Source: a virus. From it: 20,178 bases of DNA. Both the position numbers and the translations under genes were made by a program. Numbering within the stretch: the stretch's first letter is position 1; each line of letters starts with the position of its first letter. The DNA lies in IMG/VR virus record IMGVR_UViG_3300044678_000690, positions 1 to 20,178 of that record; one strand, written 5' to 3'. Shown piece by piece: positions 4,177-14,194 of this stretch. Below the pieces are notes generated by a model. It was not told where the DNA came from and made no database searches. It saw only the letters and a program-made list of their open reading frames with translations.

Positions 4177-4233
4177 TAGAACAGAGGAAAGGGCCTAGCC
4201 AGCCACATATATATATATTAATTTCATGAAATC

Positions 4234-4239
4234 AGGAGG
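4234..4239 (+). promoter_or_regulatory. Ribosome binding site that selects the tail tube start
   Basis: AGGAGG lies inside the longer open frame that begins at ATG 4226 and is ten bases before ATG 4250. A ribosome bound here would start at 4250, giving M-A-Y-Q-N-T-G. The upstream ATG 4226 has no such site and sits in the centre of a 12-base palindrome (4221-4232). Confidence 0.65.
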
Positions 4240-4249
4240 CAATACAATT

Positions 4250-5032
4250 ATGGCATATCAAAATACAGGTGACGCTAAGAATATTCTTGTTGGCGCATCA
4301 CCACTATTTTTGTCAGTAGAAGACTCAACAACACCAGGTTACGTCACAAACATGGAAGCGGGAGTAGCGAAATCTTTCGTTGCAGATAAAAACCGTCTTG
4401 TACCAGGATTTGTGGAAGCAGAGTCTTATACTACAACACTAAACAAAGTTTTACCAGCTACAGCAGCTACACAACAGACATCACCAACAGAGGCAAACCC
4501 TCTAAAGGGTGCAGCATACCGTAACGTTGGTTACACAAATAACGGTCTTCAGATCAGTTACCAGCCAACATACGATTCTGTAACAGTTGATCAGCTTCTA
4601 GATACAGCTAAGCTATTTAAATCTGCAATGCAGGTTCAAATTTCAACTGAAATGGCAGAAGGAACTCTAGAAAATATTCTTGCAGTATTTGGCCAGAAGT
4701 CAGATACACTAAAGCCAAAGAAGGGTGGAACTCCAGAAGCAGTACTAACAGGACTAGCAGCAGAAGATCACCTTGGCCTAGAAGCAGGTGCACTTGGTTC
4801 AGCTCCAACAGAGCGTCAACTAATTGCAATTGGACAGGCTCCAACATCAGAAGCAGCAGCAACTGAGCGTGTATACTATGCACGTCGTGTTTTGTCTGTT
4901 GAGCAGTCACAGTTCTCTTTGGCTCGTACAGCAGCAACAACATTCCCAGTAACATTCCGTCTTCTACCAGACGGTAATTATACTGGTTCAGAATACGGTA
5001 AGATTATTGACCGTGTACTAGCATTAAACTAA
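4250..5032 (+). CDS. Tail tube (major tail) protein
   Basis: This 260 aa protein probably polymerises into hexameric rings to form the tail tube around the tape measure. Evidence is position (after the tail terminator, before the two frameshift-linked chaperones), size, and composition. It is rich in Thr, Ala and Gly with beta-strand patches near L-V-G-A-S-P-L-F-L-S-V and F-P-V-T-F-R-L-L-P-D-G. All nine arginine codons are CGT, as in the capsid gene and unlike the AGA-rich neighbours, which marks a highly expressed virion protein. I chose ATG 4250 because AGGAGG at 4234-4239 precedes it; starting at 4226 would add M-K-S-G-G-N-T-I. A strong hairpin follows 14 bases after the stop, making this close to a monocistronic unit. 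Confidence 0.8.
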   Translation: MAYQNTGDAKNILVGASPLFLSVEDSTTPGYVTNMEAGVAKSFVADKNRLVPGFVEAESYTTTLNKVLPATAATQQTSPTEANPLKGAAYRNVGYTNNGLQISYQPTYDSVTVDQLLDTAKLFKSAMQVQISTEMAEGTLENILAVFGQKSDTLKPKKGGTPEAVLTGLAAEDHLGLEAGALGSAPTERQLIAIGQAPTSEAAATERVYYARRVLSVEQSQFSLARTAATTFPVTFRLLPDGNYTGSEYGKIIDRVLALN

Positions 5033-5111: not shown

Positions 5112-5139
5112 AATTTAGACGATCCTTAAGGAGGATAAA

Positions 5140-5472
5140 TTGGCAAGTACAGTATATGATGTAGAAGAGATTGAACTACAAAGCGGAGCTAAAGTAAAGC
5201 TCAAGCCATTATCAATCAAGCAACTACGAAAGTTTATGGAAGTAATTAAGAAAGTGCAAGACGCAGAAGATGAGACTGCAACACTTGGCATTTTGGTTGA
5301 AGCGTGTGGAGTAGCATTAGAAACTCAACTGCCAGATCTAGTTGCTGATCTTGACAAGCTCGAAGATGCATTGGATGTTCCAACAATTAATAGAATCCTT
5401 GAAGTTTGCGGAGGAATTAAGATGGACGACCCAAACCTAATAGCGGCAGCGGTACTGGCTGGTCAGAACTAG
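5140..5472 (+). CDS. Tail assembly chaperone G (short, non-shifted product)
   Basis: This 110 aa protein is the unshifted product of the tail assembly chaperone pair, functionally like lambda gpG. These proteins bind the tape measure during assembly and are not kept in the virion. It starts at TTG 5140 behind a strong AAGGAGG five bases upstream. The protein has a short beta start (V-Y-D-V-E-E-I-E-L), a helical middle (I-K-Q-L-R-K-F-M-E-V-I-K-K-V) and D-V-P-T-I-N-R-I-L-E-V-C-G-G, a layout usual for phage tail chaperones. The last 12 codons overlap the -1 open frame that encodes the T part. A slippery heptamer CCCAAAC at 5430-5436 is in the correct register. Position directly before the tape measure and the frameshift make the identification strong. 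Confidence 0.85.
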   Translation: MASTVYDVEEIELQSGAKVKLKPLSIKQLRKFMEVIKKVQDAEDETATLGILVEACGVALETQLPDLVADLDKLEDALDVPTINRILEVCGGIKMDDPNLIAAAVLAGQN

Positions 5473-5810
5473 ATTTAGCCGCTTTAGAGGGACAAGTTTT
5501 TCTTTTAGGACATTGGAAGAATTACGAAGATTTAGAAGAAAATTTATCAATGCCAGAATTGATTCAGACCATAACAGCAATGAATCAAAAAGAACATAAC
5601 CAGAGAAAGTTTGCAGCATCGCTAAAGGGAATCCAATTAGATGATGATGCAGAAGAAGAAAAAGAAAAAGGTTCTACCTTTGAAGATATCCAAAGAAGAG
5701 CCCTTGGAATTAAAGCATCAGCAGATGATGTTGTTGGTTTACAAGGACCCTTCGCAGCACAAGCTGGATTTGGAATTGGCGCAGGGTTAGGATACTCTAG
5801 GAGTAATTAG
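5140..5810 (+). CDS. Tail assembly chaperone G-T, made by -1 frameshift
   Basis: This is the extended chaperone, joining 5140-5436 to 5436-5810, about 223 aa. After the Asn codon at 5434-5436 the ribosome would slip back one base and read P-N-S-G-S-G-T-G-W-S-E-L-D-L-A-A-L-E-G. It then reads Q-V-F-L-L-G-H-W-K-N-Y-E-D-L-E and M-P-E-L-I-Q-T-I-T-A-M. This reads as the well-conserved T domain of tail chaperones and has no start codon and binding site of its own at its natural beginning. The -1 frame is open only from 5421, so the shift must fall between 5421 and 5472. The T half ends in an acidic/basic linker and G-L-G-Y-S-R-S-N. Its stop overlaps the tape measure start by one base (TAGTG). The T domain is expected to bind tube subunits while G binds the tape measure. 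Confidence 0.85.
5430..5483 (+). promoter_or_regulatory. Programmed -1 frameshift site with downstream stem
   Basis: The zero-frame codons GAC CCA AAC contain the canonical X-XXY-YYZ heptamer C CCA AAC (5430-5436), on which both tRNAs can re-pair as CCC AAA. Five bases downstream, agcggc (5442-5447) can pair with gccgct (5478-5483) as a GC-rich 6-bp stem around a 30-base loop. An alternative is agcgg (5448-5452) with ccgct (5479-5483). The stem has the spacing usual for stimulatory elements; a pseudoknot is possible but not clear. The zero-frame stop (5470-5472) lies in the loop. Confidence 0.85.
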
Positions 5811-8800
5811 TGGCTGACGAACAAATTGTAACCTCCATAGTCGCCAAAGCCGACTTGTCTAGCCTTGTGTCTGAAGTACACAGGGCTAGTGCTAGTCTTC
5901 AGCAACTTCAAAGAGAGCTGCTTGCTTCTAACAGAGCAATTTCTGCTTCAACAAAATTAGCAAACAATTTATTTAGAGATACATTAACTGGAAGCGGGCA
6001 GTTCTCCAGCCACTTCGTAAACCTTAATTCAGATGTCGATAAGTTTGGTAAGAATTTAGATGCAGGCAGATTAAAGCTTAAGAACTATTTCCAAACTTTT
6101 AGAGAGCATGCTACTACTCAAAAAGGAATGATCAGAGAGCTTGCCAAAGAGCAAGTTATGCTTCAAAACTCAGTCCTACAACCTTTAGGCAGAAATGCTC
6201 AAGGCTTAATGCAGTACAATGTCATGATTCCAAGAGGATTAGATGCTGTAAAGAATAGTGCACAGCTAGCTCGCATGGAACTGCAGATAATGAATCGTGC
6301 ACTATCTGAAGGAGCAGGATCTTTAATTAACTGGGGTAAGAATACTCAGTGGGCAGGTCGTCAGCTTACAGTTGGTCTCACAGTGCCATTAACAATGTTT
6401 GGTGCTGCAGCAGGAAAAGCTTTTAGAGAAGCAGACCAAGAGCTCGTAAGACTTACAAAGGTTTACGGTGGGCTAGCAGCAACATCTGCAACAGATTTAA
6501 AAGCAATTAGAGAAGAAGTTATTCAGACAGCAAAGTCTTTGTCTCAAACAATGGGTGCTTCTTTTAAAGACACAATTGCTCTAGGTGCAGATATTGCGGC
6601 AACTGGAAAGATGGGCAGCGACCTCCTTGGCTCAATAGAAGAAACAACAAGACTTGCTATCCTTGGTGAAGTAGACAGACAAGATGCAATGAAGGCCACT
6701 CTATCAATTCAAACAGCTTTTAAACAAAATACAGAACAGCTTACAGAGTCAATTAACTTTCTTAACGCAGTTGAAAACCAGACATCTACAACTCTTAATG
6801 ACTTAGTGGAAGCAATTCCAAAAGCTGGCCCAGTTGTTCAACAACTTGGAGGCAGCATTGAAGACCTAGCTCTTTATATGACTGCAATGAGAGAGGGCGG
6901 AATTAATGCGTCTGAAGGTGCAAACGCATTAAAGTCAGGTTTAGCTTCTTTAATTAATCCAACAAAACAAACAGTTGGAATTATGTCAGACTTCGGCATA
7001 GATGTTATGGGCATGGTTGCAAAAAATACTGGTAATACAACTGGCATGCTGTTGGACCTGCAAACAGCTCTTAATAAACTAGATCCTTTAAGCAAAGCTA
7101 GAGCGCTAGAACAGATGTTTGGTAAATTCCAATTTGCAAGAATGAGCGCACTCCTAAACAACCTTGGCAAAGAAGGAAGCCAGACGCTTCAGGTTATGGA
7201 TCTAATGAAAGCAAGCACTTCAGATTTGGCGGGAATTGCAGAGCGAGAATTAGGAATGATTACAGAATCTGCATCTGGTAAATATAGAAAAGCTATGGAA
7301 AGCCTAAAGGCAGAACTGGCAAGCGTAGGAGAAGAATTCCTTGGCATAGGAACTAAGATTATAAATGCAGCATCAAAGATTTTGAATTTCTTTACTGAGT
7401 TGCCAACACCAATTAAAAAAGCTCTTACATTTATGGCAGGATTTACAGCATTAGTAGGTCCACTTATTATGTTAACTGGTGTGCTTGCAAACTTCTTCGG
7501 ATATATAACAAAGGGAATAGTACAGCTTAGATCTTTCTTTATGAGAGCAAACGGATGGAAAATGCTCACACCAGAAATTATTGCTGCTCAAAAAGCAGCA
7601 GAGATGGTTGAAAATGCATTCTATTCAGATGCAGCCGCAGCTCAAGTTTTACACAACGCATTGCAAAAGCTTGTTTTAGATTATCAAAATCTGCAAGCAG
7701 CTTCAATGAAAAATGCAGTTCCTGTAAACCCAGGAGTTAGCACAGTTGCTGGAAATGCAGTTGTTGCAGCTGGAAGAAGAGTTGTAGATCCCAACGATCC
7801 ATATGTTGGCGACCCTAATACTAGAGCAATGTCTCATATTAGACCAAGAGATGTAAACAATCCAGCAACTATATTTGGCGGGGTCCCAGGAGCTATTCCA
7901 GTTAATAGAGGAATATCAAGAACTCCACAAATGTATATGCATGATAGACTTCCAAATATTGAAGGACTAACAAGCGTTAAGGGAATATCTACAGGAATTG
8001 TTCCAGGAGAAGCAGCTAAGTTCCATGCATTAATGGCAACTCTAGGAATGCAGACAGAGCAAGAGGTTGCCACATTAAAGAAGACTATTGCTATGGGCGG
8101 AACAGTAAGCAGAGAACTATTAGATACATTTGATGACATACTCCCTATAACTCAAAGATTTGCAAATAGCGCAGCAGATCAATCTGCATTAATTGTGCAG
8201 CAAATGAGAAATGCCGAAATTACTGTAGACCAAGCAAAGGCAAGAATCCTTGCACTCAATGCACAGATAGAAGCAGAAATGGGATCTGCTGTAAGTGCAT
8301 ATGCAGCAGGCAGAGGACGCACATTAGACTTAACAAAAGCTCCAATGATGAATCAACCAGTTGTTGATGCAAATGGGCAGTTTACGTTAAGAGATTTATA
8401 TAAGAAGCAAGCAAATGCTTCTGTCATGGAAGAGTTTGGAAGAGTGCGTGGAGTTAGAACATTTGGTGCTCCGTATAGTATTCAGACAACACGACTACCT
8501 AAATTTTATGAGGGTGGAGACATTGAATCATTTGGCCCAGGCAAGACTATGGTTTCTGGTCCATCTTCAATTAATTACGACGATAGACTAGGAAGCGTTC
8601 CACTAGGCGGATATGTTTTAAATCAATCTGCGTCTATGGATCCTGCAAACGCACCACTTGTTGCAATGGCTTCTGCTACTTATGAAAATGGTGGAGAAAT
8701 AACAGCAGCCCTAACCCCACGGGAAGTTGTTTTTGGGCCTAAGATTCAAAGAATGCCTGAGCTGTATGCAGCAGTAGATGCAGCAAATAGTGGATATAGT

Positions 8801-11800
8801 TTTGGCGGCCAGATCATGAAGGGCACATATGGATATGGAAGAGAAAGCGTTCTATCAATATGGGCAAGATTAGTTAACTCTAAGGATTATCCAAATGTTA
8901 TTAAGGCAGCAACAGTTGCCTCTGATGCTGCAATATTGTCGCAGCTTACTGGAATGGATATTAAGGATGCTACAAAGCGTACTGCTTCAGACTATGATTC
9001 AGCAACAAAGCATGCAAAGAAAGCGGCTAATGCAAATGGAACCACAAAGCTAGAAGAGTTTGTAAAAGCAAGAACAGCTCAGCTTATTAGATTAAGCAAA
9101 GAGCATCCAGATGCAAACTTAATTCTAGATGCTTATTCAAATAAAAATAAGTATAACCAATCTGCAAAAGCAGCTGGTCACAAAAAGATAGACACAATGA
9201 GTTACACAAGAACAATGATGTCTGTAGTCGATGATCTTGTTGCCCAAGGTATTATAAGCCCAGGACAAGCTAAAAAGGTTTTTGGAATTCTGGGTGGAGT
9301 TTCAGATTCATATGATCCTATTCATAAATCTCACTTTATGACTGCAAAAGAATCTGCTTCAGTATTTAAGCCAGGAGAGCTAGAGAAGCTGCTTGTAGCA
9401 GACGGAATGTCAAAGGCTGAGGCAGCAAAATACGCTGGTGTTACTGGAGTTAGATCAAATAACTATGTTGGTCAATCTGCTGGACTTATGGGATCTTTCA
9501 ATACTATGTTTGCTGGTATAGCATCAGGTAAGGGCGGCAACTTTAAAGATGAGCTTTCTCCATTTCAAGATGAGGCAAAGCGGAATTTTATACAAGGCAT
9601 CAAAAAGATTAAAGCCAAGCTAGGCATAAAAGGCAAAACAACAATGCCTGAAATTATTAAACAGCTTACTATGATGAAAATGAAATCTGGAATTGGATTT
9701 AATGCTAGAATGATTCCAACACTTGGTGGAAGACTAGCTTCAATGAACAGCTCTTGGATGAGACAATTAACTGGTCCAGCTGTTGGGTTTTTTAACAAGG
9801 GCGGAATGATTCCAGGTGGATCTATATCTAAAGGTAGATCAAATTATGGAAACATATCCCCACTATTAAGATTAATAGCACCATCCAAGCAATTAGAAAT
9901 TTTGAAAAAAGCTCGTGATATGTCAAAGGCAACAGCGACAGGAACCTATAAAGACATGGCTCCAGTTAAGTATGGGCATATGGTTTCTCCAAGCTCTGGC
10001 ATGAGCTATCCAATTCCTGGAGTTTCAGGTTTGTATAAAGATGCAGATGGAAATTTAAAATTCTTTAAGGGTGTTCCAAATGAAATATCTGCAAAGGCTG
10101 AGATTTATGGCACCAGGATGGCTAGAGAAGTTTTTGAACTTGATGCTCCAGAACAAACAATTAGAACAATAGCAAACCCATTAGACCCAACTGGCAAGTC
10201 AAAACTACTTGGATTAGAATCGCCATTTGATAAAAAATTTGTGGGTGGAGGAACTAAGTTCTCAGAAGATGAAATGATTAGACAAACAATTGCATCTTTA
10301 GTAATGAACAATAAAGACTTGTCACCAAGCAATGTGTATGGAAATGTTTTAGCAGATGTTGGAGCAGCAGGAGTATTCCCTAAAGCTTCAGGTAACACCG
10401 AATTTGCAAAGACCTTGCCTTCTATGGGCGATCAAGCAATGATCAACCTTCTTGCAGTTAAGGGCGGTGCAAGAAAAGACTTTGCTGTAAATACTGCGCC
10501 AATAGCTGCAGGAATGACACCTACACAATATTCTAGAAAAATGAAAAAAGCAATGGAAAAAATGTATCCAAAGCTTGTTAAATTTGTTGCTACTATTCCA
10601 AAAGAAGACAGAGGTCCATACATTAGTCTTCTTAAAAGATTTGAAGATGGAATGGAGCGCACTGATTTTAAAAAGCTTCATGGAGTGCATGTTCAAGCTA
10701 AAAGAAATATGGGTGGTCCAATTGGTGGTGGGCCAGTTAGGTCAGGAAGATATGCCTATGGCCGTCCAGGAAATCCAGCCGCTAGAGCAGAGTGGGAAGC
10801 CAAGCAACGTGCACAAAGAGAAAGAGATGCGGAAGCTGCAAGGTCTAGAGCAGCATCTCATCAGATTCGAGGACAGCAGGCGCTTACAAGCGGTTTGGGC
10901 AGACAAGCGGTAAGAACAGGAACAACAAGCTTTTACAACCCTGGTCAGGTAATTGTTAATAACGCACTTGACCCATTTAGAAACTCTGCAATGATGAAGG
11001 CCAGATACCTTGAAGCTGGGTTTAACACTCTTGCAAATTCTGCAGCAAGAGGTGCAGTTACATTAAGATATGGATTGATGACATCTGGAACGCATGTCAA
11101 GCAAGCTTATCAAGAGTTTACAAAACAAGTTGTTAATTCAGGAAGAGCATCTCTTGCTACAATGAAAATGAAAGCGGCAATAGCTCAAGCCGCTGGAAGC
11201 GTTTTTGCATCTGGAGTACGTGCAGAAAATGCTGGAAGACTTGGACAAGCTTATCCTGGACAATATAGTATTAATCCCGCAACTGGACTTCCAATAAACA
11301 CTGCAACTGGAAAGCAAGTTGGAATGATGAGTGGACCAGCAATTATTGGAAACTGGAAGCAAGCTGGAGATGGTGTCAGCAGCAGAAAAGTTGGAACTTT
11401 AGGTTTTAGAAAAACAGAGTACATGGTTGGCGACAAGGTAATGACAGCAGCTCAGATGAAGGCTGCTGGAATGGCTGTTCCTCAAAAGCCAATGGGTATG
11501 GGCGGCGGAGCAATGGGTGCATCTATGGCTGGCTCAATGGCTGGTATGGCAATGATGAGTCAAGAAAAAGTTTTGGGTATGAGTGGACAAGCCGCTGGTA
11601 TGGGAGTTATGGGAGCCGCATCAATATTGCCTTTCATAGCTGGACCAGCTATAACTAAAGCTAGGGCTGGTCTTTCAGGATTAGGAGCTGGTGTCAAGGC
11701 AATTACTGCAGGCACAATGAGTTTAACTAAAGCTATGCATAATGTTTTAATGGTTGCAAAAGGATTTGGTCCAGTAGGGTTAGCAATAAGCGCAGTTTTT

Positions 11801-14194
11801 GCAGGCTTTAAGATTTACAAGCAAGTTCAGGATGATTGGCAAGACGCAAGAATGGGTCTTTCCATGACAGCTAAAGCTGCAGAGCAAGCTGGAATAAAGT
11901 ACTTTAACTTGCAGGAAACAATGCAAGGCTACATAGATAAGCAAAAACTAGCAACAGCCGCTGCAAAAGGTTCAGAAGGTATTGCGCTAGGAATGCCTGG
12001 ACTTCCAAGATCAATTGAAGAACTCAAGAAAGCAAAAGAAGAGGGCAAGGGTCTAAAGGATTTAATTGAATCTTTAAATAGATCAAGCAGCACTAAAGAA
12101 ACTCAAAGGCTAGTAAGCAATCAAAAGGCACAAATGGTTGCCGCTGGAATGAGCATTGAAGAAGCAAACAAGAAGATTTATGGCGCATTAGCAAATAGCA
12201 ATAAGTCTAAGCAAACATATCAATTGTTAGCTGATCAAGGTTTTGGTGCAATTGTAGACAAGTCAACTGCTGCCGAGTTTGCTGTTGAAAACCTAGTAAA
12301 CACTTTAAATAGGGGTGAGGGTACTGCTGATTGGTATAAAGAAGTAGGAAATGGATTTGAAGGACTTATTAACGTATTCCAAACAGCCACATCTAGTTTG
12401 ATCGGCACAAAAGATGCGGCAGGAAATGTTATAGATGAGTTTAGAGCTTATCAAATAGTTATGTCAAAAGCAGAAGCTAATAATCCAGGAATAAATGATG
12501 CCATCGGAGAAAGTGTTTATTCTAATTTGGTTAAGACTCAACCTTTGCTAGAACTAATTGCAAACAAGTCCGACTCAATTAAGGGTATACTCGCAAAGTG
12601 GAAGCTGTTTACTTCTGGAATTAATATTGATTTAAGTAAGATTGATTCTACATTGGCTAGCAAGCTTGCTGGATTTACATCAGCAATCGGAAGCGGAATT
12701 GATCAGCTTACTAAAGCTGCTGGAGATGCAACAACATATGGAAAAACTGGAGCAGCATTAACTAAGTTGCAAAAAACAATTGCCGCAACTTCTGCAGCAG
12801 CGCAACGAGCAAACGCAGCTTCTCAAAGAAGCGCTCAAGAAGAACTAAAAGCAATTTCTAAAAAAATTAAGCTTATAGAAGAAGAAAAGAATAAAAAGCT
12901 TGAAGCATTAAGAGCAACTCAAGATGCTTCAAATTATGCATTAGAGCTACAAAAGCTACAAATTGAATATGCCGATGCAGTATCACGGGGAGATACCGCC
13001 GCAGCTGCATCAGCAAGACTAAGTATTGATCAGCTTACTTCAAATAGACAGAGCGATCTTGCAGCTAAAGCAATCGAAGATGCTGCAAATAAGGCAAAAG
13101 CACCTTTAGAGAAAGATGCAGAAAGAATTCAAGATCGTCAAGATAAAAAGAATACTTCTTTCCAGAATGCCACAGATAACTCAGCAGTTGCTGGTGAAAT
13201 TTCTGACTTAATTAAAAAATTCCAGGGTTCATATAATGATCTAACAACTAGAGGAATAAGCGCAGAGCTTCTACCAGCAAAAGAAAGAGCTGCTGAAGAA
13301 GCAAAGATCAGATCAGAGCTAGTCGCACTTATAAAAGAAATTCAAAAATCTGGAACTGGTAGCAGCACAACTGCAAAAACAGTTAGAGATGCTTTTGGCC
13401 TCTATTTTGATAAAAACGGAAAGCCTATTGCTCCAGAGACAACATCTACATCTTATAGTGGCTCTAGGCTTACAACTACATCAACACCAAACAAATCAAT
13501 TCTAGATACATTTAAAAATGATATGGCTGCCGTAAAGCAGCTTGCAACAGCAATTACTGGTGGAACAACTTTAGATAGACTTAGATTAGAATTAAAGGAA
13601 GCTTTAGGTAAGGGTGAAACTAATAAGCCAAAGCCTAATGTACCTACTGCAAAACAAGCTGCAAATAATGCAGTTGATCCAATGGCTCCTAAAGGCGGAA
13701 CAGTAAGAAAAGAAGGAAACATTACCTATATTTATGACAATATGGGAAAGAAGTACGACATAACAAGTCCAGAAGGAAAGAAGTTAAAGAAGGTATTTAA
13801 AAAAGCATCTGGAGGAATAGTTCAACATTTTGGTCCAGGTGGAGGAGTTTATGGTCCAGGCACTGGAACATCGGACTCTATACCAGCAATGCTATCAAAT
13901 GGTGAGTATGTTATTAGGGCGGAATCAGTTCAAGCAATAGGAGTCCCTATGCTAGACAAGATAAATAAATTAGCTGCTGGAGGAATGGTTAGCTATGATA
14001 TTCCTAAGATGTCAAGCGGTGGCCGTGTAAGATTTAACGAGGGAGGCCTTGCTTCATCTGGAAGCACATTGTATAATATCAATGTAGAGCTTAATGGAAC
14101 TAATCTTACAGCAGATCAAGTTGCTGCATCAATTCATAAAGAAATGAGACTTAGAGAAATGGCTTCTGGAGTAAATAGAAGGGTTGGCGGATAA
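5810..14194 (+). CDS. Tape measure protein with two embedded enzyme-like domains
   Basis: This 2794 aa protein should set tail length and help DNA ejection. It starts at GTG 5810, with AGGAG six bases upstream. Residues 1-170 are coiled-coil-like. About 180-500 match the TP901-type tape measure core (W-G-K-N-T-Q-W-A-G-R-Q-L, then F-G-K-F-Q-F-A-R-M). About 538-566 is a strongly hydrophobic segment (F-M-A-G-F-T-A-L-V-G-P-L-I). About 1012-1325 is an unknown domain with a DPIHKSH motif (1169-1175). About 1350-1630 has kinase-like motifs: GLYK 1407-1410, FFK 1418-1420, N-x-D-x4-N 1501-1508, D-V-G 1516-1518. About 1895-2005 is Met/Gly-rich and hydrophobic. About 2325-2450 is a charged coiled coil. 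The C-terminus has G-P-G-T-G-T-S-D-S-I-P-A-M-L-S-N-G-E-Y-V, common in tape measures. No peptidoglycan hydrolase motif was seen. The enzyme-like parts are inferred. Confidence 0.9.
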   Translation: MADEQIVTSIVAKADLSSLVSEVHRASASLQQLQRELLASNRAISASTKLANNLFRDTLTGSGQFSSHFVNLNSDVDKFGKNLDAGRLKLKNYFQTFREHATTQKGMIRELAKEQVMLQNSVLQPLGRNAQGLMQYNVMIPRGLDAVKNSAQLARMELQIMNRALSEGAGSLINWGKNTQWAGRQLTVGLTVPLTMFGAAAGKAFREADQELVRLTKVYGGLAATSATDLKAIREEVIQTAKSLSQTMGASFKDTIALGADIAATGKMGSDLLGSIEETTRLAILGEVDRQDAMKATLSIQTAFKQNTEQLTESINFLNAVENQTSTTLNDLVEAIPKAGPVVQQLGGSIEDLALYMTAMREGGINASEGANALKSGLASLINPTKQTVGIMSDFGIDVMGMVAKNTGNTTGMLLDLQTALNKLDPLSKARALEQMFGKFQFARMSALLNNLGKEGSQTLQVMDLMKASTSDLAGIAERELGMITESASGKYRKAMESLKAELASVGEEFLGIGTKIINAASKILNFFTELPTPIKKALTFMAGFTALVGPLIMLTGVLANFFGYITKGIVQLRSFFMRANGWKMLTPEIIAAQKAAEMVENAFYSDAAAAQVLHNALQKLVLDYQNLQAASMKNAVPVNPGVSTVAGNAVVAAGRRVVDPNDPYVGDPNTRAMSHIRPRDVNNPATIFGGVPGAIPVNRGISRTPQMYMHDRLPNIEGLTSVKGISTGIVPGEAAKFHALMATLGMQTEQEVATLKKTIAMGGTVSRELLDTFDDILPITQRFANSAADQSALIVQQMRNAEITVDQAKARILALNAQIEAEMGSAVSAYAAGRGRTLDLTKAPMMNQPVVDANGQFTLRDLYKKQANASVMEEFGRVRGVRTFGAPYSIQTTRLPKFYEGGDIESFGPGKTMVSGPSSINYDDRLGSVPLGGYVLNQSASMDPANAPLVAMASATYENGGEITAALTPREVVFGPKIQRMPELYAAVDAANSGYSFGGQIMKGTYGYGRESVLSIWARLVNSKDYPNVIKAATVASDAAILSQLTGMDIKDATKRTASDYDSATKHAKKAANANGTTKLEEFVKARTAQLIRLSKEHPDANLILDAYSNKNKYNQSAKAAGHKKIDTMSYTRTMMSVVDDLVAQGIISPGQAKKVFGILGGVSDSYDPIHKSHFMTAKESASVFKPGELEKLLVADGMSKAEAAKYAGVTGVRSNNYVGQSAGLMGSFNTMFAGIASGKGGNFKDELSPFQDEAKRNFIQGIKKIKAKLGIKGKTTMPEIIKQLTMMKMKSGIGFNARMIPTLGGRLASMNSSWMRQLTGPAVGFFNKGGMIPGGSISKGRSNYGNISPLLRLIAPSKQLEILKKARDMSKATATGTYKDMAPVKYGHMVSPSSGMSYPIPGVSGLYKDADGNLKFFKGVPNEISAKAEIYGTRMAREVFELDAPEQTIRTIANPLDPTGKSKLLGLESPFDKKFVGGGTKFSEDEMIRQTIASLVMNNKDLSPSNVYGNVLADVGAAGVFPKASGNTEFAKTLPSMGDQAMINLLAVKGGARKDFAVNTAPIAAGMTPTQYSRKMKKAMEKMYPKLVKFVATIPKEDRGPYISLLKRFEDGMERTDFKKLHGVHVQAKRNMGGPIGGGPVRSGRYAYGRPGNPAARAEWEAKQRAQRERDAEAARSRAASHQIRGQQALTSGLGRQAVRTGTTSFYNPGQVIVNNALDPFRNSAMMKARYLEAGFNTLANSAARGAVTLRYGLMTSGTHVKQAYQEFTKQVVNSGRASLATMKMKAAIAQAAGSVFASGVRAENAGRLGQAYPGQYSINPATGLPINTATGKQVGMMSGPAIIGNWKQAGDGVSSRKVGTLGFRKTEYMVGDKVMTAAQMKAAGMAVPQKPMGMGGGAMGASMAGSMAGMAMMSQEKVLGMSGQAAGMGVMGAASILPFIAGPAITKARAGLSGLGAGVKAITAGTMSLTKAMHNVLMVAKGFGPVGLAISAVFAGFKIYKQVQDDWQDARMGLSMTAKAAEQAGIKYFNLQETMQGYIDKQKLATAAAKGSEGIALGMPGLPRSIEELKKAKEEGKGLKDLIESLNRSSSTKETQRLVSNQKAQMVAAGMSIEEANKKIYGALANSNKSKQTYQLLADQGFGAIVDKSTAAEFAVENLVNTLNRGEGTADWYKEVGNGFEGLINVFQTATSSLIGTKDAAGNVIDEFRAYQIVMSKAEANNPGINDAIGESVYSNLVKTQPLLELIANKSDSIKGILAKWKLFTSGINIDLSKIDSTLASKLAGFTSAIGSGIDQLTKAAGDATTYGKTGAALTKLQKTIAATSAAAQRANAASQRSAQEELKAISKKIKLIEEEKNKKLEALRATQDASNYALELQKLQIEYADAVSRGDTAAAASARLSIDQLTSNRQSDLAAKAIEDAANKAKAPLEKDAERIQDRQDKKNTSFQNATDNSAVAGEISDLIKKFQGSYNDLTTRGISAELLPAKERAAEEAKIRSELVALIKEIQKSGTGSSTTAKTVRDAFGLYFDKNGKPIAPETTSTSYSGSRLTTTSTPNKSILDTFKNDMAAVKQLATAITGGTTLDRLRLELKEALGKGETNKPKPNVPTAKQAANNAVDPMAPKGGTVRKEGNITYIYDNMGKKYDITSPEGKKLKKVFKKASGGIVQHFGPGGGVYGPGTGTSDSIPAMLSNGEYVIRAESVQAIGVPMLDKINKLAAGGMVSYDIPKMSSGGRVRFNEGGLASSGSTLYNINVELNGTNLTADQVAASIHKEMRLREMASGVNRRVGG
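8510..8800 (+). repeat. Degenerate internal copy of the tape-measure C-terminal motif
   Basis: Residues about 901-998 of the tape measure (G-G-D-I-E-S-F-G-P-G, then S-V-P-L-G-G-Y-V-L-N-Q-S-A-S) align with the C-terminal motif at 2668-2710 (G-G-I-V-Q-H-F-G-P-G, then S-I-P-A-M-L-S-N-G-E-Y-V-I-R-A-E-S). A third weaker echo follows (T-P-R-E-V-V-F-G-P). The copy sits directly before the first insert domain. Confidence 0.55.
8801..8841 (+). repeat. Gly-rich linker copy 1 before insert domain 1
   Basis: Residues 998-1011 read F-G-G-Q-I-M-K-G-T-Y-G-Y-G-R. The pattern G-G-x-I, then G, then Y-x-Y-G recurs at 9788-9853 and 10709-10768, so the two putative inserts are bracketed by related linkers. Confidence 0.5.
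8843..9784 (+). other. Tape measure insert domain 1, nucleotidylyltransferase-like motif
   Basis: This segment encodes tape measure residues about 1012-1325. It is rich in Lys and helix-forming residues and looks globular rather than coiled. At 1157-1176 it reads V-F-G-I-L-G-G-V-S-D-S-Y-D-P-I-H-K-S-H-F, which resembles the beta1/HxGH loop of the nucleotidylyltransferase superfamily (G-G-x-F-D-P-I-H-x-G-H). The glycine before the second histidine is serine here, and the motif lies mid-domain rather than near its N-terminus. A second family signature, (I)SSTxxR, was not found. The resemblance may be chance. Confidence 0.35.
9788..9853 (+). repeat. Gly-rich linker copy 2 between the inserts
   Basis: Residues 1327-1348 begin F-F-N-K-G-G-M-I-P-G-G and end G-R-S-N-Y-G-N, an imperfect copy of the linkers at 8801-8841 and 10709-10768. 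It separates insert domain 1 from the kinase-like insert. Confidence 0.5.
9854..10708 (+). other. Tape measure insert domain 2, protein-kinase-like
   Basis: This segment encodes residues about 1349-1633. In order it shows a nucleotide-loop-like G-L-Y-K-D-A-D-G (1407-1414), a strand with F-F-K (K1420 as candidate ATP-binding Lys) and a helix with E1431 in A-K-A-E-I-Y-G-T-R-M-A-R-E. L-G-L-E-S-P-F-D follows near 1473, then N-K-D-L-S-P-S-N (N1501, D1503, N1508) and L-A-D-V-G-A-A-G (D1516, G1518). The order and spacing resemble HipA/PI3-4-kinase-like folds (N-x-D-x4-N, D-x-G). The His found in many HipA catalytic loops is Ser1505. Fold assignment is inferred from motifs only. Confidence 0.55.
10709..10768 (+). 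repeat. Gly-rich linker copy 3 after the kinase-like insert
   Basis: Residues 1634-1653 include M-G-G-P-I-G-G-G-P-V and G-R-Y-A-Y-G-R-P, resembling the linker at 8801-8841 most closely in Y-x-Y-G-R. It closes the second insert. Confidence 0.5.

Follow-up and report, generated by a model that had tools for sequence, protein, structure and literature searches.

The tape measure protein (TMP) encoded in this viral DNA carries in its middle, at residues 1349-1633, a domain whose predicted structure almost certainly has a kinase fold. Alignments indicate that this domain is exchanged between related phages as a self-contained cassette, between Gly-rich linkers. Our best explanation, which we favor with some reserve, is a virion-carried kinase, probably active, that is delivered onto a host or defense target during genome entry. 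The first-pass annotation had proposed a kinase-like domain embedded in the TMP, and the structural model supports this proposal, as one globular domain with its ATP/Mg-binding residues kept is predicted there. Beyond that proposal, the homologues indicate that the kinase module is exchanged as a cassette, and its relatives in IMG/VR number in the hundreds.

The window (the whole stretch of DNA analyzed, 20,178 bases with 38.6% G+C) is a virus record of its own, and one strand carries its long open reading frames (ORFs). The TMP ORF was identified by its matches to PhageMin_Tail (PF10145, E 1.5e-27), to 12 PHROGs tail tape measure families, and to tape_meas_TP901. The phage is probably long-tailed and non-contractile. 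The features are as follows.

2-946: capsid-family match (PF05065, E 2.7e-5, 24.1 bits, just under the cut-off of 24.2)
4226-5032: weak tail-tube match (E 0.0019, under the cut-off)
5810-14194, + strand: TMP ORF, 2794 aa, GTG start
6524-7123, + strand: PhageMin_Tail core of the TMP, residues 239-438 (Pfam E 1.5e-27)
7418-7507, + strand: hydrophobic segment, residues 537-566, possible membrane span (Kyte-Doolittle 19-residue windows of at least 1.6)
8831-9769, + strand: exchangeable module adjoining the kinase, residues 1008-1320, with an ALT version in the same slot of relatives
9791-9850, + strand: left linker FNKGGMIPGGSISKGRSNYG, residues 1328-1347
9854-10708, + strand: predicted kinase-fold module, residues 1349-1633 (AlphaFold2 model, kinase-fold matches, invariant active-site set)
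10067-10069, + strand: K1420, putative β3 lysine (115/115 members; strand 68-73 of the model)
10100-10102, + strand: E1431, putative αC glutamate (115/115; helix 77-92 of the model)
10316-10333, + strand: putative catalytic loop D1503-L-S-P-S-N1508 (D1503 and N1508 115/115; S1505 position Ser 70, Gln 39, Gly 6)
10355-10363, + strand: D1516-V-G1518, putative metal-binding DxG (Asp 115/115, Gly 109/115)
10706-10762, + strand: right linker NMGGPIGGGPVRSGRYAYG, residues 1633-1651
11744-11803, + strand: second hydrophobic segment, residues 1979-1998 (Kyte-Doolittle 19-residue windows of at least 1.6)

Linkers resembling FNKGGMIPGGSISKGRSNYG are found at other module borders. The first 997 residues of the TMP match 277 annotated phage records, none of which covers more than 80% of the query, and the best matches, at about 32-33%, are to Streptomyces phages. 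The gene order of Wakanda and Blueeyedbeauty (Stanwilliamsviridae) is similar to that of the window by eye; alignment of their TMPs (2088 and 2075 aa) to that of the window stops at about residue 640 (E <= 1e-4). Upstream of the TMP, ORF 5119-5472 is overlapped by ORF 5421-5810, which lies in the -1 frame, and an in-frame slippery heptamer C-CCA-AAC is at 5430-5436. This arrangement resembles the frameshift commonly seen in tail assembly chaperone genes and is ordinary.

Homologues of the module were collected by iterated searches of viral_contigs (IMG/VR), in which a relative was encoded in 9/14, 10/59, 119/129, 239/287, and 330/361 of the pattern-matching stretches in successive searches, with no more than 80 stretches retrieved each time. 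Alignment A5 holds 77 sequences less than 93% identical to each other, drawn from 104 unique sequences of at least 240 residues, and its members are 37-86% identical to the window kinase. AlphaFold2 predicted residues 1349-1633 on these 77 homologues with a pLDDT of 93.4 and a pTM of 0.90. The kinase model rests on the deeper alignment, since the same prediction with just 9 near relatives gave a pLDDT of 39.5. The model begins with strands 40-46, 59-63, and 68-73 (K1420 is residue 72 of the segment) and helix 77-92 (E1431 is residue 83). Strands 102-107 and 117-124 (with E1470, residue 122, at the place of the hinge) and helix 138-150 come next. D1503 and N1508 are in the loop that follows, and D1516 comes after two short strands and before helices 191-280. 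The order of elements is thus as in kinases: β3 Lys, αC Glu, catalytic Asp, Asn, and DxG, with the active site placed from the predicted model by residue position. With a β-rich N-lobe, an αC helix, and a helical C-lobe in the model, and with Lys, Glu, Asp, Asn at +5, and DxG in the sequence, the segment is predicted to be a complete kinase domain with both lobes, belonging to the protein-kinase-like superfamily.

The comparison with known structures agrees with this assignment at the level of a distant match (Z 9-12). VIA-align, which re-aligns the 1000 chains ranked highest by Foldseek, gave Z-scores of 11.8 for CotH, 10.6 for CtkA, 10.2 for PI4KII, 9.6 for MavQ, 9.4 for HipA, 9.2 for Fam20C, and 9.1 for HipT. 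Among the 50 VIA-align matches listed, 49 are kinase-fold proteins by title or by what we take to be their identity (for example, MDT as HipA); the remaining one is LepB (4jw1), whose title names no kinase. The best match, the spore-coat kinase CotH (PDB 5jd9/5jda), superimposes over 216-218 residues at 3.9 Å (218 for 5jd9). However, CotH is a cellular protein with only 8-10% identity to the module, and its profile is not among the nine Pfam families matched by 23 members at E <= 5. HipA, HipT, and CtkA share the kinase fold with the module at Z 8-10.6, and HipA also has the D-x4-N spacing, which is common to other kinase families too. On the predicted model, CotH and CtkA are structurally as near as HipA and PI4K or nearer. 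In Foldseek itself, no PDB match reached E <= 0.001; the best was CtkA (E 3.6e-3, probability 0.99), and the first matches were mostly kinases, with a lanthipeptide synthetase in fourth place.

Among viral structure models (BFVD), five matches reached E <= 0.001; at the top were a protein of Mycobacterium phage Onyinye, a portal fusion, and an ADP-ribosyltransferase (ART) protein. The viral matches listed include phage fusion proteins and annotated kinases, and other virion-associated fusions may therefore carry this kinase fold. The Onyinye protein (A0A6B9L6W7, E 1.4e-5), the portal fusion (A0A6J5S481, E 1.7e-5), and the HSTV-2 protein (L7TJZ0, E 1.0e-2) resemble the module, but they are annotated as ART, portal, and PI3K/PI4K proteins and not as TMPs. 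HSTV-2 gp16, taken as L7TJZ0 by its length, aligned with the module only at noise level in hhalign. As a side observation, the kinase-fold-like matches in A0A6B9L6W7, A0A6J5S481, and A0A6J5PWC9 lie within phage proteins named ART or portal.

The motif series that had first drawn attention to the segment was confirmed: GLYK at 1407-1410, FFK at 1418-1420, AKAEIYG at 1428-1434, NKDLSPSN at 1501-1508, and DVG at 1516-1518. A loose pattern of this motif order, devised after the sequence was seen, recurred in 9 of 1000 whole-TMP shuffles and in 1 of 2000 segment shuffles. The 77 homologues agree fully at 33 of 285 positions, and these include five of the seven residues named in the first-pass annotation (K1420, E1431, D1503, N1508, and D1516), for which the chance of at least five of seven is 2.8e-4 with positions taken as independent; the chance of all five catalytic residues falling among the 33 invariant A5 positions is 1.6e-5. 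Of the other two, position 1501 is Asp in 48/77 and position 1518 is Gly in 75/77. Across the 115 distinct members that are 230 residues or longer, the same five residues are invariant together with G1407 and Q1492, E1470 is kept in 114, and position 1501 is Asp in 74 and Asn in 41. The outcomes that the first-pass annotation had named as counting against a kinase were thus looked for and not seen: the confident model has a kinase lobe, kinase-fold structures match it, and D1503 and D1516 are conserved. A Ser at the place of the catalytic His had been taken as a possible sign of degeneration. This reading finds no support in the family, where that position varies among Ser, Gln, and Gly and the five catalytic residues never do (115 members). 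The dN/dS values across six kinase pairs are 0.09-0.26, with synonymous distances of 0.76-1.58. The conserved active site and low dN/dS together indicate that the kinase domain is under purifying selection and keeps the residues that ATP and metal binding require, and we consider its catalytic competence quite likely.

The window kinase segment alone had no match in Pfam, NCBIfam, or PDB sequences and a single PHROGs match at E 0.3. For the family members, the best profile and PDB matches were at chance level and all to unrelated or unnamed families: 0.013 in Pfam, 0.0074 in PHROGs (2/77 members), 0.067 in PDB, and 0.0033 in NCBIfam (8/77 members, a sugar-phosphate epimerase). The kinase sequence family is absent from the profile libraries searched (Pfam, PHROGs, and NCBIfam). 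By tblastn against 50,697 records of annotated phages, there was no match for the window module at E <= 0.1 or for one divergent member at E <= 1. In species genomes, a relative was encoded in 0/27 and 0/16 pattern-matching stretches, with queries built from the window module and near relatives that would miss divergent members. No cultured relative was found in these searches.

The retrieved loci hold 118 distinct kinase sequences, and in 112 of them the kinase follows a TMP N-terminus within one ORF and frame; in four of the other six the ORF extends past the start of the locus, and two are pieces in one frameshifted contig. No ORF among 278 carries two kinase copies. Of 69 nonredundant complete TMP ORFs, 43 have the kinase module and 26 do not, a sample that is biased because the kinase itself was used to retrieve many of the loci. 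When loci were retrieved by the TMP N-terminal part alone, the kinase was present in 21/80, and several of the others stop before the slot.

Pairs of TMPs show the exchange. One relative, L031, shares at least 83% identity with the window TMP in 44 of the 49 150-base bins that flank the module (range 76-99%), but six bins inside residues 1351-1650 are 53-69% identical. In translation, identity is 91% and 93% for the two flanks and 54% for the kinase. The left border of this exchange is at about residue 1341-1350, adjoining the left linker, and the right border is gradual, with identity climbing until about residue 1680. A similar dip (57-70%) between regions of 90% and 91-100% identity is seen in L026, with further divergence downstream too. 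In 59 pairs, the TMP N-termini are at least 94% identical, yet in 14 of them the kinases are just 51-56% identical; the pair L236 and L239 is the converse case, with 41% identity in the N-terminus and 67% in the kinase. In tree tests, the kinase data reject a nine-row TMP clade (dlnL 288.6, p-AU 0.0013) and the TMP data reject a fourteen-row kinase clade (dlnL 227.1, p-AU 0.0002), p-AU values that are optimistic because the groups were picked once the identities had been seen. That divergent alleles are swapped while the catalytic core stays the same fits a change of target specificity and suggests that the alleles differ in their target or in escape from host recognition.

The lumen of a phage tail may be too narrow for a 285-residue kinase in its folded form, which bears on its folding state and delivery. 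Enzymes fused to TMPs are known in kind. According to PMC10770324, gp96 of Thermus phage P23-45 is a biochemically proven virion RNA polymerase fused to a giant TMP. The two systems are alike in that an enzyme domain is fused to a TMP and is present or absent among related phages, but in P23-45 gp96 the RNA polymerase is at the TMP N-terminus, and here a predicted kinase lies mid-TMP and is cassette-exchanged. By this analogy, the kinase would be placed in the tail and would act in the cytoplasm, where ATP is. As a part of the TMP it would sit inside the tail tube, perhaps in an unfolded or squeezed state, and would enter the cytoplasm with the DNA or ahead of it, fold, and encounter ATP. There it would bind Mg-ATP, transfer phosphate (or AMP) to a host protein or small molecule, and so modify a host or defense target at the first moment of infection. 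For the module as a delivered effector, we put the chances at even or slightly better.

Other roles for such a domain have to be weighed against delivery. The kinase fold might be kept for structure with no catalysis, lining or spacing the tail or serving as an assembly scaffold or TMP stabilizer. The domain does sit within a structural protein, and among the 26 complete TMP ORFs that have no kinase, twelve have other segments in the slot; a segment of some kind is therefore needed there, but not this one in particular. However, the ATP/Mg set is invariant in 115/115 members, at identities to the window down to 37% in A5, whereas loss of the set would be expected in a domain that served purely as scaffold, and we regard a structural role as unlikely. 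An active kinase could also act on the phage itself, phosphorylating the TMP or tail proteins on meeting cytosolic ATP as an entry switch. The tethering of the domain to the TMP and its single copy per ORF are in line with this, and in some pairs (L164) the adjacent TMP segments diverge along with the kinase. The swap in L031 between otherwise similar TMPs makes another part of the TMP a less likely substrate, and the many TMPs with no kinase also speak against a self-acting kinase, a reading to which we give little weight.

The identity of the kinase was weighed in the same manner. The first-pass annotation had pointed to HipA or PI3/4-kinase-like proteins, and membership in either is unsupported: there is a fold-level likeness to HipA and PI4KII, but the sequence profiles stay at chance level. 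The PI3/PI4 kinase catalytic loop is of the D-R-H-x-x-N type; no member of 115 has the His there, although the fold is similar to PI4KII. Capture of a HipA-family member from a host toxin-antitoxin system, acting on a tRNA synthetase, would agree with HipA and HipT being among the structural matches and with an hhalign alignment, itself at noise level, in which Lys, Glu, Asp, and Asn fall opposite their HipA counterparts. Against it, HipA_C (PF07804) had no match in a search that finds this family in 5/14 control genomes, and hhalign was at noise level both with nine HipA proteins (probability 0.7%) and with E. coli HipA alone. The S-x-A-G-x-Q-x-K loop is absent by eye, as is the D-x-H-x-K-N motif, both invariant in the nine HipA proteins, with no His at position 1505 in 115/115 members. 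We therefore hold HipA capture to be very improbable. Kinase folds are known to catalyze other transfers, and the nearest folds here include spore-coat, protein, and lipid kinases, so that AMPylation, glutamylation, or lipid or sugar phosphorylation could be considered in place of protein phosphotransfer. No special feature was found that points that way, and we rate such a transferase as quite improbable. A virion-carried kinase acting on a host or defense target is still the reading that we prefer.

Kinases in other large phage proteins offer a second comparison. In PMC5512222 (Iyer et al. 2017), kinases of polyvalent phage and plasmid proteins are described as being without the C-terminal subdomain and as occurring primarily in Verrucomicrobia-Chlamydia and Bacteroidetes phages and prophages, and PMC7824862 says that polyvalent proteins are injected with DNA by certain phages. 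Like our module, these are kinase-superfamily domains inside large multidomain proteins; unlike them, the module lies in TMPs and is predicted to have helices 191-280 after DxG. The term 'tape measure' is absent from the main text of Iyer et al. 2017 (PMC5512222). In PMC8876498, a kinase-domain protein and the TMP are separate ORFs. Among the titles and abstract openings listed from open-licence literature, none concerns a kinase located within a TMP, although such a case could still have been published. With TMP-fused enzymes known in kind, what appears new here is the enzyme class, a kinase fold, and the cassette exchange.

These results suggest that, together with their DNA, phages of this kind may deliver preformed kinases into the bacterial cell. 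If the kinase is active and delivered, many phages would carry a tail kinase that modifies host proteins before phage gene expression. TMPs would then be effector carriers and offer a testable route of early takeover or counter-defense, and the natural allele swaps would offer a way to find the kinase target. The finding also raises the matter of how a 285-residue domain travels through the tail tube.

The neighborhood of the kinase is variable as well. Many relatives have another version, ALT, in place of the module at residues 1008-1320, and Pfam had no match on 8834-9829. By eye, a helical N-terminal part and an H...GY.(T/A).G(H/Y).G.A-like stretch seem common to this module and ALT. A nucleotidyltransferase reading of the module was rejected; the NadD match at its GG..DPIHKSH motif was weak (E 0.025, with 14.1 bits where the cut-off is 150), and the motif is disrupted in two homologues (L113 and L144). 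For the slot segments of the twelve kinase-less TMPs, Pfam gave nothing at E <= 0.1 on 10 of the 12. We propose tentatively, at somewhat less than even chances, that many uncultured phages have a mid-TMP cargo slot with interchangeable folded modules, this kinase among them, which are flanked by Gly-rich linkers, threaded through the tail, and released in the host as first-minute effectors. If so, the tail would be a programmable protein injector.

Some further features of these TMPs were seen by inspection. In seven kinase-less TMPs (L043, L053, L055, L061, L067, L076, and L093), globular-looking slot segments lie between NxGG..G linkers, and slot segments recur by eye, for example in L055/L061/L093 and in L067/L087/L093. 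Some TMPs (L005, L008, L015, L016, L023, and L030) are 3676-4711 aa long, with about 800-1900 additional residues between two matches to parts of the window segment 2641-2794.
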